Source: a bacterium
GTDB lineage: Bacteria; Patescibacteriota; Microgenomatia; UBA1406; GWC2-37-13
Direction: 5' to 3'
DNA length: 64,000 bases
Assembly (NCBI GenBank): GCA_021789995.1
Contig: JAJYIQ010000002.1
Coordinates: forward strand, 1 to 64,000
Part shown: positions 7,103 through 11,517 of the stretch, in pieces
Position numbering within the stretch: position 1 is the stretch's first letter
Layout of the letters: the number at the start of each line of letters is the position of its first letter
The notes under the pieces: generated by a model
What the model saw: the letters and a program-made list of their open reading frames with translations, nothing else
Database searches by the model: none
Told to the model about the DNA's origin: nothing
Program-made: the position numbers and the translations under genes

Positions 7103-7164
7103 AATTCCTAACCTCTGTCGCGAAATTTTTCGCCACATAGGGTAGGAAAAGAGACTTGCGGTGG

Positions 7165-7400
7165 CTTATTAAACGCTTGAAAGCGTTCAGGCGATTTGTT
7201 TCTGCGTGAAGCAGGAACAAATTCGGCTGATGATTGCGCACACAAACGATTTGATTCGTTTGCTCTCTTTCCCAGGGTTCAGGGATCCTGTGATGACTAA
7301 TGTCAACACAATCGACCGGGTGGTCGAATTGATAACCGAGGGAAACTCGGGTTGCGTTTCTCACTGCAACTTAAGACTAGGAAATGCTGCCTAAGTCTTA
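7165..7400. other. Array of about nine consecutive short hairpins (left array)
   Basis: No convincing gene lies between 7103 and 7425. Instead the DNA is a near-continuous chain of inverted repeats: AACGCT-TGAA-AGCGTT (7172-7187); a 14-15 bp imperfect stem at 7192-7225; CAAACGA/TCGTTTG (7243-7262); CAGG/CCTG (7280-7290); TGAC/GTCA (7294-7305); TCGACC/GGTCGA (7312-7327); AACCGAG/CTCGGGTT (7334-7353); GTTGC/GCAAC (7351-7370, competing with the previous stem); and a 9-10 bp stem at 7372-7400. Loops are mostly 3-10 bases. Reading frames across it match nothing I recognise. It follows the stop codon of the proline-rich gene on the minus strand. Confidence 0.6.
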
Positions 7401-7425
7401 TCTCTGTCGTACTTTGACGCGCTGC

Positions 7426-8061
7426 CTACTTGCAGGACCACCCAGAAAGCGGGTGAAGATGAGCGTGGGCCCACCCATACTGAATCGCCTGTGAAAGGCG
7501 GAAACAGTATTCCTGTTGGCTCCATTCAGTCGTAACGACCGAATAGAAACCGTCTGTCACCGTGATGGTGGCAGTAGTAGGTCCAGCGATAGCGCCGTAA
7601 GCCCCTCCGGATTCACCATTAACGGTGTATCCGCCATATACGAGCACAGTGCCCGCAAGAACTGGAATATTCCAATTCTGCGTTTTTTCGGCATCTGATC
7701 CGGTGTGTCCAGTCTCTTGGTACGAGCTGGGGTGTGGTACGTAGGGCTGTGGGGGCAGTCCATACGATGGGGTAGTGGCGGGGGCGGGGCCAGCGGCGGG
7801 TGTCGGCTGTGGGGCCGGTGGCGGAACATACGGTGGTACAGACGTCGGGGCAGGCGCGGTTGGCGCAACAGGCGGCACGTACGGTGTGGGCGTAGGAACG
7901 AGTGCCTTTGCACCATTCTGCCAATTCGCGGCAACTGCCTGTATGATGTCCCAACCCGGAACCAAGATAAAGTTCCAGAGGAACCAGGCCACTGCCAGAA
8001 TAACGACGACCACAATCAGGACGCGCAAAACCGAACCGATTACGTAACCTAATGTACGCAT
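7426..8061 (-). CDS. Single-pass membrane protein with proline-rich linker, unknown function
   Basis: I do not recognise the 211-residue product. It has one N-terminal membrane helix (about residues 8-33, IGSVLRVLIVVVVILAVAWF) and a Pro/Thr/Ala-rich linker (about 55-115). A globular C-terminal domain of about 85 residues contains three Trp, two Cys and a His pair (HAHLHP). The layout suggests a surface-displayed domain on a flexible stalk. A good SD (AAGGAG) sits just before the ATG, which is unusual here. GC content and codon choice (frequent CTG, GTG, CGC) differ from neighbours. It follows the small gene at 8092-8280 on the same strand, and both lie between two hairpin arrays. Foreign origin is my inference. 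Confidence 0.7.
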   Translation of the reverse strand: MRTLGYVIGSVLRVLIVVVVILAVAWFLWNFILVPGWDIIQAVAANWQNGAKALVPTPTPYVPPVAPTAPAPTSVPPYVPPPAPQPTPAAGPAPATTPSYGLPPQPYVPHPSSYQETGHTGSDAEKTQNWNIPVLAGTVLVYGGYTVNGESGGAYGAIAGPTTATITVTDGFYSVVTTEWSQQEYCFRLSQAIQYGWAHAHLHPLSGWSCK

Positions 8062-8091
8062 TTCTTACTCCTTTATCCGATTTTCCGAACT

Positions 8092-8280
8092 CTAGTGACC
8101 GAACAAACCGTCGGTAAAGCCTCCAACGAGGTCCTTCACATCCTTCTCGATCGGTGATGGTCGCGTGGTGCGCTTCGTCGGCGTCTTGGGCGTGCTGGGG
8201 CGCTTTTTGGGCGTCCTTTTTTTGAGCTGCTCGCGCAACTCTTTGTTCTCTCGCTCGAGCTGAGCCTTCGTCTTAGCCAT
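8092..8280 (-). CDS. Small basic protein with N-terminal coiled coil, unknown function
   Basis: The 62-residue product starts with a short heptad-like helix (AQLERENKELREQL), has a Lys/Thr/Pro-rich basic middle, and ends with an acidic/Gly-rich tail (DLVGGFTDGLFGH). I know no family for it. The ATG is preceded at ideal distance by TAGGAGG, one of the strongest SD sites in the window. That site overlaps the stop of a possible 13-residue leader frame (8331-8290). Its stop lies 30 bases before the start of the proline-rich membrane protein gene, so the two form a two-gene unit. Nucleic-acid or envelope association are both conceivable for the basic segment; neither is shown. Confidence 0.6.
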   Translation of the reverse strand: MAKTKAQLERENKELREQLKKRTPKKRPSTPKTPTKRTTRPSPIEKDVKDLVGGFTDGLFGH

Positions 8281-8289
8281 TTTGGCCTC

Positions 8290-8331
8290 CTACAGTAAAA
8301 AGCATTTCAGCTTTTCGTTTTTTACGAACAC
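8290..8331 (-). CDS. Possible 13-residue leader peptide, coupled to the downstream small gene
   Basis: On the minus strand a very strong SD (AAAGGAGGTGA, 8351-8341) precedes a GTG at 8331, or an ATT three bases earlier. The frame reads V-F-V-K-N-E-K-L-K-C-F-L-L and stops at TAG (8292-8290). This TAG is the first part of the TAGGAGG that serves the gene at 8280. That geometry would give translational coupling. The SD-to-GTG spacing (12 bases) is long and no protein evidence exists, so an empty SD or antisense element remains possible. Confidence 0.35.
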   Translation of the reverse strand: MFVKNEKLKCFLL

Positions 8332-8340
8332 AATAAAATC

Positions 8341-8351
8341 TCACCTCCTTT
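8341..8351 (-). promoter_or_regulatory. Extended Shine-Dalgarno sequence (or, on the other strand, an anti-SD mimic)
   Basis: The minus strand carries AAAGGAGGTGA, fully complementary to the 3' end of bacterial 16S rRNA. On the plus strand the same bases read TCACCTCCTTT, a copy of the anti-SD tail. Most genes in this window lack SD sites, so its strength is notable. It lies between the right-hand hairpin array and the two-gene cassette, which supports minus-strand transcription through the array. Confidence 0.55.
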
Positions 8352-8361
8352 CAAAAATTGA

Positions 8362-8886
8362 TACTGCTCTCTAATCCCGATTCAATCGGAACTAGGGTGC
8401 AGTACCAATCCGTCTCTACTCAAAATAATCCCATTGTTGGAATTATTTCTTTCAGACAGAAAGGTGATGAGTCCCTGTTAGCTTTTTAAGCTAATATCCT
8501 TCCAAAAATTTCAGTTTCCGAAAAGCTTATTTTCGGTTTCCTTTATTTTTGTCAGGGTAAACCCAATTGTTAAGGTGCTCCCACTTCGCCCTGCGGACTA
8601 CGCGGGACAGGCCTTCGACTTTGACAGGCCCGGACAATTGGTTTTCTAACCATGCAAACGATTAAATACCAATCGTCACATTATTTGCTTCCTACCCTAC
8701 GATGGAAGCAAATTCCATTTTCGGGTAAAAAGCCCCTTCGACTTATCCCGATAAATCGGGAATCGCTCAGGGTAAACTTAGGTTATTAAGCCTAAGGAAT
8801 GATCTCGAATAATTCGCGATCAATCTTTAGACTAAATTCCGGTTGAAAAATAGCAAGTCGCTTGCTAAAATATTTGTACTAATCAC
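8362..8886. other. Array of about thirteen consecutive hairpins (right array), candidate structured RNA
   Basis: The 8352-8950 stretch holds no convincing gene. It holds serial inverted repeats: 21-bp arms around C8383 (8362-8404, 17 Watson-Crick pairs); 8423-8448 (10 of 11 pairs); 8449-8463; TTAGCTT/AAGCTAA (8478-8494); CCGAAAA/TTTTCGG (8518-8536); an outer stem CCAATTGT/ACAATTGG (8563-8641) enclosing 8590-8606; 8658-8676; ATTTGCTTCC/GGAAGCAAAT (8683-8713); TCCCGAT/ATCGGGA (8746-8761); 8777-8796; 8801-8821; and TAGCAAG/CTTGCTA (8851-8867). G-U versus A-C exceptions do not clearly favour one strand. It may be a long 5' leader of the minus-strand genes or an independent plus-strand RNA that ends at the terminator 8887-8925. 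Confidence 0.6.
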
Positions 8887-8925
8887 TCCTGCAACAGTCG
8901 CAAGACTCTTTGCAGGATTTTTTTT
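8887..8925 (+). terminator. Intrinsic terminator with GCAA-capped inner stem
   Basis: Arms TCCTGCAA (8887-8894) and TTGCAGGA (8910-8917) are perfectly complementary. Inside them AGTC-GCAA-GACT forms a second small stem with a GNRA tetraloop, and eight T residues follow (8918-8925). It points along the plus strand, where no gene lies immediately upstream, so it would end a transcript crossing the hairpin array. Confidence 0.65.
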
Positions 8926-8950
8926 GTCATATTTTTGCTAAACTTGATAT

Positions 8951-9487
8951 ATGGCAAAAAAACGGTGTATCGTGCTTATTGATGGCAGCAACTTCTATTT
9001 CAAGATGAAGGAGCTTGGTCTCCATCGTCTTTTGCATTTTGATTTCTCGGCTTTTATTAAATCCATTGCCAAAAAACAAAAAGTGATTTCTGCCACCTAC
9101 TATATTGGTAAAGTGCGGACTGACGGTACTGACAAAGTTCAACAGTTGTTTGATAACCAGCGCAAACTCTTCGCCCATTTACGTAAACATAAAATCAAAT
9201 ATTCGCTCGGATATTTATTAAAATCATCCGGCCGATTTCATGAAAAAGGCGTTGATATCAATATCGCCGTCGATATCCTGGTCGCCGCTTACGAAAATCT
9301 CTGTGATCATATTATTCTTATTTCTTCAGATACCGATCTTCTGCCGGCAATTCAAAAAGCCAGGCAAAAAGGTAAAACAGTCGAGTACATCGGTTTTTCC
9401 CATCAGCCAAGTTATGCAATGGTGACCAATTGCACCGAGTCTTTCCTTCTCAAAAAAGAACTGCTCGAACCGTTCATTTGTCCCTGA
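8951..9487 (+). CDS. NYN-domain (LabA/DUF88-like) putative ribonuclease
   Basis: The 178-residue product is a stand-alone NYN domain, a PIN-like nuclease fold. Visible signatures are IVLIDGSNFYFKMKE near the N-terminus (first acidic ligand, Asp11), the mid segment EKGVDINIAVDILVAAYE (second Asp cluster), and ILISSDTDLLPAIQKARQKG (third, the SDTD motif). Together these give the acidic metal-binding pocket expected of an active enzyme. Length is normal for LabA-like proteins. RNA substrate and regulation are unknown. No SD is visible, and the ATG directly follows AT-rich DNA after the terminator at 8887-8925. It is not obviously linked to neighbouring genes. Confidence 0.88.
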   Translation: MAKKRCIVLIDGSNFYFKMKELGLHRLLHFDFSAFIKSIAKKQKVISATYYIGKVRTDGTDKVQQLFDNQRKLFAHLRKHKIKYSLGYLLKSSGRFHEKGVDINIAVDILVAAYENLCDHIILISSDTDLLPAIQKARQKGKTVEYIGFSHQPSYAMVTNCTESFLLKKELLEPFICP

Positions 9488-9519
9488 TTGTCAAAGAACT
9501 TTGGGGTATTAGCCCAAGA

Positions 9520-9634: not shown

Positions 9635-9853
9635 ATGTTGACTAATTCGGATATCAAAAAATTAAAAGATGTGTTTGCAACTAAAGCGGATTTAAAACAG
9701 TTAGCAACGAAAAAAGTTCTTGAAAAGATGGAGAACAGATTGCAAAAAAGCATTAATCGTCTAACTGATGTCGTCGATGAGAAGTTGACAGAGCATGACA
9801 ACCGCTTGGAAAGAATCGAAAAGCACCTCAATTTATCTCCGATATCAAATTAA
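9635..9853 (+). CDS. Small coiled-coil protein, unknown function
   Basis: The 72-residue product is almost entirely helical and charged. It begins MLTNSDIKKLKDVFATKADL and continues with heptads rich in Leu/Ile and Lys/Glu. The 'D..KL..VFATK.DL' start followed by a coiled coil is a pattern I associate with short, very common Patescibacteria proteins of unknown role. A Thr-Lys-Ala-Asp-Leu unit (ATKADL) and its near repeat (ATKKVL) are visible. No enzymatic residues or signal peptide are present, and no SD precedes the ATG. Confidence 0.7.
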   Translation: MLTNSDIKKLKDVFATKADLKQLATKKVLEKMENRLQKSINRLTDVVDEKLTEHDNRLERIEKHLNLSPISN

Positions 9854-10083
9854 GACCCTACCGTCTACAAAACCCATTTTTCTGCTGATTTTGTCTAGAG
9901 TAGGCTCTCAATAATATCAGCAGTTATTATTAAATCCTATAGTTAATACTAAACAAGTAGTAAAAATAATATAGTACCCTTTATATATTGGTAATCCGAA
10001 CTATCCACATAGATTACACAATATCCTCTTTACAGTTACTATATTTTTTTGTTTCTTATAATGCGACCCGGTTGTCAAGGTAC

Positions 10084-10099
10084 TCCGCCAGCTGGCGGA
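10084..10099. repeat. Perfect 16-bp palindrome next to the DUF11 gene stop codon
   Basis: TCCGCCAGCTGGCGGA is a perfect palindrome abutting the stop codon of the minus-strand DUF11 gene (10100). A near copy with GGTT in the centre is at 9539-9554. It may act as a 3'-end hairpin, though no T-run follows on the minus strand. Confidence 0.5.
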
Positions 10100-10929: not shown

Positions 10930-10987
10930 ATTAGCATATTCGCATCATTGGCATCATTGGCATGCATTCGTAGATTCGTATCATATA
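10930..10987 (+). repeat. Dispersed promoter-proximal repeat, copy 1
   Basis: This stretch reads ATTAGCATATTCGCATCATT, then two GGCAT-type iterations, then ATTCGTAGATTCGTATCATA. The same assembly, one iteration shorter, occurs at 56392-56439 just before carB. In both places the repeat ends within 10 bases of a start codon. In this copy the 3' end forms the TATAAT box of the SpoU methyltransferase gene. Confidence 0.7.
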
Positions 10988-10989
10988 AT
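10984..10989 (+). promoter_or_regulatory. TATAAT -10 box, leaderless configuration
   Basis: TATAAT lies at 10984-10989 and the ATG of the next gene at 10996, leaving only six bases. Transcription would be expected to start on or next to the ATG. This supports choosing 10996 over the in-frame upstream start at 10948. No good -35 box is seen 17 bp upstream. Confidence 0.55.
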
Positions 10990-10995
10990 ATAGCT

Positions 10996-11517
10996 ATGAA
11001 ATTAAATGCCAGGGAGCTGCGGACGGTGGACGAAAATGAGGCTAAAGTGAGGCTAAAGTCATTGAAGCGTCAGCCGATCTATTTTATCCTCGAGAATATA
11101 TATGATACGTATAATATCGGCGGTTTGTTTCGCCTGGCTGACGCCTTGGCCATCGAAAAGATGTATTTATGCGGGGAGACGGAAATTCCGCCCAACAACC
11201 GGATAAAGAAGGCGTCGATCGGGACGTATAAGTTTGTGCCGTGGGAATATAAGAAGACGGCCAAAGAGGCAATGGCTGAATTGTTAAATTGTAATATTGT
11301 TGCCGTTGAGCAATCGCCCGAAGCTATCTCTTATACCCAAGCGGAATACAAAAAACCATTAGCCCTGATATTTGGCAATGAGACTTACGGCGTGCTGCCG
11401 GAAACGCTCAAGCTGGCTGACAAGATTGTCGAGATTCCGATGTGGGGGATAAACCGCTCACTCAACGTCATAGTCTCGGCCGCAATCGTCTCCTATTTCG
11501 TCGTAAATAAGCTATAA
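10996..11517 (+). CDS. TrmH/SpoU-family RNA 2'-O-methyltransferase
   Basis: The 173-residue product is a short SPOUT methyltransferase. Motif 1 appears as ILENIYDTYNIGGLFRLADAL (the Asn and Arg that bind RNA), motif 2 as LALIFGNETYGVLPETLKLAD, and motif 3 as IPMWGINRSLNVIVSAAIVSYF. These fold into the knotted SAM-binding site and fit the SpoU family (TrmH, RlmB, TrmL), which methylates ribose 2'-OH groups of tRNA or rRNA. There is no N-terminal RNA-binding extension, so it is closest in size to TrmL-like enzymes. The target nucleotide cannot be predicted. It lies just before tRNA-Thr. Confidence 0.88.
   Translation: MKLNARELRTVDENEAKVRLKSLKRQPIYFILENIYDTYNIGGLFRLADALAIEKMYLCGETEIPPNNRIKKASIGTYKFVPWEYKKTAKEAMAELLNCNIVAVEQSPEAISYTQAEYKKPLALIFGNETYGVLPETLKLADKIVEIPMWGINRSLNVIVSAAIVSYFVVNKL

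Follow-up and report, generated by a model that had tools for sequence, protein, structure and literature searches.

On one contig of a Microgenomates bacterium (JAJYIQ010000002.1, assembly GCA_021789995.1), two dense arrays of hairpins lie on either side of a pair of small minus-strand genes, which raises the question of what such arrays are for. The original prediction offered three answers, namely a long structured RNA, a structured leader and trailer of the minus-strand genes, or a folded single-stranded DNA substrate. Here the locus is followed through the whole stretch of DNA analysed (the window, 64,000 nt) and through the genomes of relatives. To our knowledge, almost nothing is known of gene regulation in the Candidate Phyla Radiation (CPR).

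Folding strength and gene context

Both hairpin-dense stretches proved to be real, and neither contains a convincing gene. Compared with dinucleotide-shuffled sequence, the large array (8355–8930) folds at −215.2 kcal/mol on the minus strand (z −11.1) and at −184.1 kcal/mol on the plus strand (z −8.4). The small array (7160–7410) reaches z −5.2 on the plus and −5.8 on the minus strand, with 0 of 200 shuffles equally good; the objection that shuffled sequences might fold as well was thus checked, and no shuffle matched either array. The long imperfect stem that had been singled out corresponds to a hairpin at about 8356–8410, here named helix H2. The expectation that RNase P, tmRNA, SRP and 6S RNA would not fit was borne out by the Rfam covariance models, none of which matched at the gathering score. 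At this threshold the window yielded three tRNAs only, the relaxed threshold added nothing convincing for the leader described below, and the families including OLE, GOLLD and ROOL, the riboswitches and the group I and II introns gave no leader match at the gathering score. A group II intron was considered separately and rejected, as there is no reverse-transcriptase ORF and the ORFs of the unit encode 62 and 211 aa without a Pfam match.

The gene order on the minus strand is a DUF11 protein gene (10792–10100), the structured region, a 62-aa gene, a 211-aa gene, a structured spacer and a family-2 glycosyltransferase gene (GT2, 7138–6218), with a SpoU gene running divergently (10948–11517). Gene 1 (8092–8280, minus strand) encodes a basic, coiled-coil protein behind the Shine–Dalgarno (SD) sequence GGAGG; gene 2 (7426–8061, minus strand; SD GGAG) encodes a protein with an N-terminal transmembrane (TM) helix and a proline-rich linker, whose C-terminal half is 46–51% identical to the syntenic proteins of two relatives, G046 and G032. 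The operon products are small, membrane-bound or secreted, and their sequences diverge fast. The supposed two-gene cassette is an operon downstream of the large array, and each of its genes has an SD of its own. Searches of the cassette proteins against phages, plasmids and viral contigs returned no relatives, hence there is no sign of a virus or plasmid.

The small array (7172–7400) belongs to the structured spacer between gene 2 and GT2 (7139–7425; z −6.0 and −6.4 on the two strands), and the corresponding spacers of four relatives are structured as well (z −2.6 to −8.0). Since no alignable homologue of the small array was found and no strand preference was seen, we claim no function for it.

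Anatomy of the leader in the window

On the minus strand, a structured 5′ leader precedes the genes at 8280–8092 and 8061–7426, and the large array makes up its 3′ half. This half (8335–8870) folds with z −11.1, and its homologues were recognised in 11 genomes of the family by synteny and a covariance model. The stretch originally delimited is real, and the RNA extends further, probably to a promoter-like site near 9940 on the minus strand. At this site, UUAACUAUAGG (9936–9946) is the probable start of the leader according to comparison between genomes; the sequence is weak in the window itself, and in other members it reads TATACTATAGGG.

All elements that follow are on the minus strand. A boxA-type element, AGUACCUUGACAACCGGG (10067–10084), lies just past the DUF11 gene and is the same in the sister genome G045. 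Within the leader, a second boxA-type element, AGUUCUUUGACAAUCAGGG (9482–9500), adjoins a hairpin at 9518–9499. Further leader hairpins (8821–8801, 8795–8778 and 8772–8734, together within 8734–8821) are known from the fold and are not individually alignable to relatives. The helix AACCAAUUGU/ACAAUUGGGUU (8560–8643), recognised from sequence and fold, encloses GC-rich repeat-like hairpins and overlaps the boxA-type element AGCACCUUAACAAUUGGG (8562–8579), the positional homologue of the relatives' GCACUUUnACAAAAUGGG, so that masking of this boxA is possible in the fold. A domain closed by helix P8 (CCCUG/CAGGG; 8473–8557), supported by an arm-swap test, holds hairpins at 8536–8518 and 8494–8478. 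Downstream of it, an anti-SD strand, UCAUCACCUUUC (8459–8470), forms the 5′ arm of a long-range helix, H0, by pairing with 8352–8341 (−16.4 kcal/mol); H0 spans helix H1 (AAAUAAUUCC..GGGAUUAUUU, 8423–8448) and the long apical hairpin H2 (8356–8410), whose loop houses inserted genes in relatives. The 3′ arm of H0 is the extended SD-like sequence GAAAGGAGGUGA (8341–8352), which is complementary to the 16S 3′ end of relatives, UCACCUCCUUUC. The window retains boxA, P8, H0, H1, H2 and SD, and its other arms are its own.

Some palindromes within the leader hairpins are repeat-like, namely those at 8579–8615 (CUUCGCCCUGCGGACUACGCGGGAC) and 8734–8772 (CCCUUCGAC..CGCUCAGGG), and are scattered in other family genomes; for 8579–8615, a DNA search recovered such scattered sites.

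Homologous leaders in related genomes

A DNA search of the family recovered fragments of the array in G011 (88% identity) and G034 (82%), where the genes stand in the same order around a homologous leader, besides NYN-linked matches elsewhere. A covariance model of the 3′ core (R1), built from four genomes, found the leader in seven more of 83 genomes (G030, G020, G038, G069, G029, G006 and G052; E 1e-18 to 4e-5); in every one whose contig extends far enough, SpoU, DUF11 and/or GT2 stand beside it. The homologous leaders, whose ends were defined by hand in a mixed set of incomplete MAGs, measure about 400–900 nt and keep the order SpoU/DUF11, leader, small TM or secreted proteins, GT2 within one Roizmanbacteria family. 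An assembly chimera was considered and rejected, as the same arrangement occurs in independent assemblies.

In a search of contigs of 85,000 species the exact core motif occurred in only six records (four Roizmanbacteria, one Microgenomates group bacterium and one Patescibacteria group bacterium), and it was not found in viral contigs. A second model (R2), run over 373 genomes of the class, recovered seven family genomes and two weak others, G312 and G136, with E-values expected by chance over that number of genomes; on visual inspection, both have the promoter, boxA, hairpin and SD in common with the leaders. These two, from other families of the class (L125 and L126), were noted among short versions of the leader together with L127 (G069) and L148 (G047); the order in the short versions is promoter, hairpin, boxA, H2-like hairpin, SD and a secreted or TM protein.

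A typical member begins with a promoter, TTGA(A/C)N-TATACTATAGGG, and a hairpin whose AAGGGACGAAAC strand can alternatively pair with a later GUUUCGUCCC; in many members a terminator-like hairpin, CCCAAG..CUUGGGUUUUUU, follows about 100 nt after the start. The middle part consists of a hairpin (GGCGGGGACUAG..CUAGUCCCCGCC), P5, which includes the GCAC of boxA, the boxA itself (GCACUUUnACAAAAUGGGU), P6, and P7, often with a GAAA loop. The 3′ end is formed by P8 (CAGGUU/AACCUG), the anti-SD CCUCCUUUC, H1, the conserved and unpaired AAGUAGGGAAAGAUUGG, H2 and the extended SD AGAAAGGAGGUGA. In several members the extended SD lies 60–150 nt from the first long gene, where it may belong to a tiny ORF, or have a structural role and not be the SD of the operon.

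Two related observations concern the operons themselves. A second GAAAGGAGGUGAUG motif occurs 60–150 nt before later operon genes (L031, 9468–9637, minus strand; also L029, L056, L067 and L092), with structured sequence between the motif and the real SD and start. In some members the first motif is directly followed by a tiny hydrophobic ORF, of which MLGPIIAVVFVIVLIALFK in G034 is an example.

Covariation and strand

A global MAFFT/RNAalifold alignment of seven leaders was too gappy to score, and the helices were therefore tested singly. In a sequence-only alignment of ten core sequences, with some inserts trimmed from loops, the 29 pairs of H1 and H2 are paired in 92.8% of cells and 16 of them have changed on both sides; outer H2 and P7 arms, which MAFFT misplaced, were excluded from the counts. 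The covariation score is 0.520 compared to 0.211 for shuffled controls (0 of 500 as high) and 0.05–0.17 for slid controls, numbers that are not probabilities since the shuffling takes no account of phylogeny. Taken separately, H1 shows changes on both sides in 8 of 10 pairs (96% of cells paired) and H2 in 8 of 19 inner pairs (91%). The stems of H1 and H2 are thus compensatory, contrary to what would have spoken against a functional fold.

Arms taken from the same genome also pair better than arms swapped between genomes: P = 0.0002 for H1, H2, P5, P7 and P8 (the last over 10 genomes) and P = 0.0044 for P6; as the arms were picked by eye, the comparison leans somewhat towards own pairing. The H2 arms, for example, give −19.2 kcal/mol with their own partners versus −11.1 kcal/mol when swapped. 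The anti-SD/SD pairing of H0 is possible in 15 of 15 homologues; with so little variation on the SD side, its swap test gives P 0.066.

As to the strand, the folding energy is lower on the operon-sense than on the antisense strand in 16 of 16 leaders, and H1 and H2 of the window contain minus-strand G–U pairs that would be A–C on the plus strand. Synteny, covariation and this strand preference together support, for the large array, both the reading as a long structured RNA and the reading as a structured leader of the minus-strand genes.

boxA elements and antitermination factors

The conserved leader motif GCACUUUnACAAA resembles boxA. In seven of nine family genomes examined, boxA-like elements (TGCACTTTGAAAA, TGCTCTTTGAAAA, CGCTCTTTGAAAA and similar) precede 16S by 57–107 nt, and GCACTTTGAAAATTAGGG stands between tRNA-Ala and 23S in G052. 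In 87 kb downstream of DUF11 (45 loci) a boxA pattern gave 25 sense matches in 21 loci and none antisense, with one match in the rest of the window (58 kb of background); the leaders had been seen when the pattern was chosen, and the fair part of this result is the contrast between sense and antisense. An 18-mer version gave 48 matches in 72 genomes versus 15 for the reversed control.

A matrix made from the rRNA boxA elements only peaks at the leader motif in most leaders, with per-leader P mostly 0.003–0.09 and about 0.2–0.6 in several, including the window. The copy at 8579–8562 is a weak match to this family matrix (P 0.47), and four leaders besides the window score at chance; the copy at 9500–9482 is a better boxA match. 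NusB is present in 12 of 12 genomes and full-length Rho in 10 of 12, its absence from G000 and G034 being possibly due to assembly gaps; full-length Rho was not found in the window's own assembly. A literature search combining CPR and antitermination returned only unrelated mentions.

Inserted genes

The leader of the window contains, in its 5′ half, two genes inserted antisense, an NYN-domain gene (8951–9487, plus strand; PF01936, E 6e-24) and a coiled-coil ORF (9635–9853, plus strand) with a relative inside the G006 leader. From comparison with G006, G045 and G046 we infer that these insertions split one ancestral leader. The terminator with a GCAA loop (8887–8925) was originally taken to cap the array but is part of the NYN gene unit: together with a promoter (8843–8871) it lies outside the leader (8843–8925, plus strand), and NYN genes at unrelated loci carry the same promoter, CCUGCAA..GNRA..UUGCAGG and U8 directly 5′ of the gene. 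Such a conserved promoter followed by a strong terminator hairpin before the start codon was seen in the window (8843–8951, plus strand) and at L035, L036, L039, L014 and L015, with GCAA, GAAA or GUAA as the GNRA loop and a covarying inner stem; the pair is a possible attenuator of an RNase gene.

In relatives, the H2 apical loop holds a 23S_rRNA_IVP-type gene (G052; PF05635, E 9e-31), degenerate copies of such a gene recognised by inspection (G011 and G032) or an NYN gene (G065; PF01936, E 1.5e-17), and coiled-coil ORFs occupy the leader 5′ half in G006, G002 and G016. Outside rRNA, the H2 loop (L061, L032, L034 and L074) is a hotspot at which 23S_rRNA_IVP and NYN genes insert. By analogy with rRNA, such loop insertions would match the expectation for a structured RNA with neutral loops; 23S_rRNA_IVP genes have been described in rRNA insertions of CPR bacteria (PMC11270868). 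It was also observed that an extra boxA-type element (9482–9500, minus strand, in the window; leader 5′ halves of L060, L090 and L093) adjoins genes inserted antisense, which are the NYN gene in the window and coiled-coil ORFs in G006 and G002, as though protection were needed for transcription across the insert.

Discussion

A long untranslated structured leader poses a termination risk for the RNA polymerase and needs assistance in folding; bacteria are known to meet these demands with boxA. In our opinion the large array is, on balance, likely to be part of a long structured 5′ leader of an operon for small membrane-anchored or secreted proteins, aided by boxA and ending in a switchable SD. 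The leader probably controls these genes via a boxA signal otherwise used in rRNA transcription, and we infer that it combines boxA antitermination through the untranslated part with control of ribosome access. RNA polymerase would start near 9940 and produce a leader that is untranslated and heavily folded; the boxA elements, to judge from those of rRNA, would recruit NusB–S10, so that the polymerase could pass the hairpin-rich RNA without Rho-dependent or hairpin termination and the RNA could fold properly. In the 3′ domain the anti-SD would pair with the extended SD over two covarying hairpins, making ribosome access switchable, and an alternative short pairing, CUUUC-N5-GAAAG, might free the SD. 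There may be up to three points at which a signal, if one is sensed, could act: boxA, through masking by P5 (in the window, by AACCAAUUGU), the terminator-like hairpin near the start, and the anti-SD/SD helix together with the hairpin that competes with it.

The structure may instead be an independent large non-coding RNA, an RNP or catalytic RNA that is processed from the operon or read through into it, the operon being merely its neighbour. The size of about 400–900 nt, the multi-domain architecture, the own promoter, the tolerance of inserted genes in apical loops and the boxA, both as in rRNA, and the terminator-like hairpin about 100 nt past the start in many members would all suit such an RNA. 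The leader, however, always lies 5′ of secreted-protein operons, ends in SD and anti-SD sequences with no terminator before gene 1, evolves fast outside the core and has no Rfam match, and we consider an independent RNA unlikely. It appears still less probable that hairpin-dense UTRs merely stabilise the mRNA ends and that the single stems are not regulatory: structured spacers also found 3′ of gene 2 and variable arms between the conserved helices would fit this, but boxA, the unpaired AAGUAGGGAAAGAUUGG, covarying long-range helices and their fixed order exceed the needs of stabilising hairpins.

If the intergenic region were neutral, repeats and mobile palindromes such as REP-like hairpins or IVS elements could have gathered there, which would account for the frequent inserted ORFs and for hairpins that are repeat-like and scattered in other genomes (8579–8615 in the window). 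Yet the core shows covariation and keeps its synteny across many genera, and a neutral region would not retain boxA on one strand; this explanation, which we rate as very improbable, is contradicted for the core by the covariation and the boxA strand bias and may hold for some arms. A folded single-stranded DNA substrate, such as an attC-like recombination site or a replication origin, recalls the dense inverted repeats flanking a two-gene unit but is barely credible given G–U pairs conserved on a single strand, the RNA-sense orientation of boxA and SD, no evident attC-type boxes, nothing mobile framing the region and a chromosomal position fixed over the family, the last of which argues against an integron cassette.

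The leader proposed here resembles rRNA operon leaders with their NusB/NusE boxA in its promoter, hairpin, a boxA sequence as found before 16S and 23S in relatives, and a long untranslated folded RNA, and it shares with rRNA the IVS-type genes (23S_rRNA_IVP, PF05635) in hairpin loops; it differs in the protein genes downstream, the SD at its end and the fast-evolving arms. Translational riboswitches and ribosomal-protein leaders use anti-SD/SD pairing with a possible competing hairpin. The same pairing and possible competitor are found in our leader, which, unlike these, is much longer, matches no known aptamer and suggests no ligand. OLE, GOLLD and ROOL RNAs are thought to be RNPs or catalytic. 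They are similar in size and in their ornate multi-helix architecture (PMC12286853, PMC9723947), whereas the leader has no Rfam match, stands directly before an operon and carries an SD at its 3′ end. Non-ribosomal control by boxA is exemplified by E. coli suhB, with a boxA in the mRNA 5′ UTR, and such sites have been predicted in diverse species (PMC5725501); the suhB leader is short and the Nus factors repress, in contrast to the multi-domain Microgenomates leader of about 400–900 nt.

More speculatively, and with rather low probability, these leaders could be a new class of large Microgenomates RNA whose making resembles that of rRNA, with boxA, long-range folding during transcription and IVS-type loop insertions. 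Such an RNA would be both a particle and a switchable leader, and the operon behind it, which encodes secreted proteins and evolves rapidly, may face a host or prey cell. The covarying pairs, boxA and the SD switch offer testable targets for mutation. Here a conserved, covarying RNA absent from Rfam connects the signal for rRNA antitermination with genes whose products are secreted or lie at the cell surface; rRNA-type intervening elements can evidently settle in the loops of another structured RNA, and non-ribosomal control by boxA would be extended to the bacteria of the CPR.
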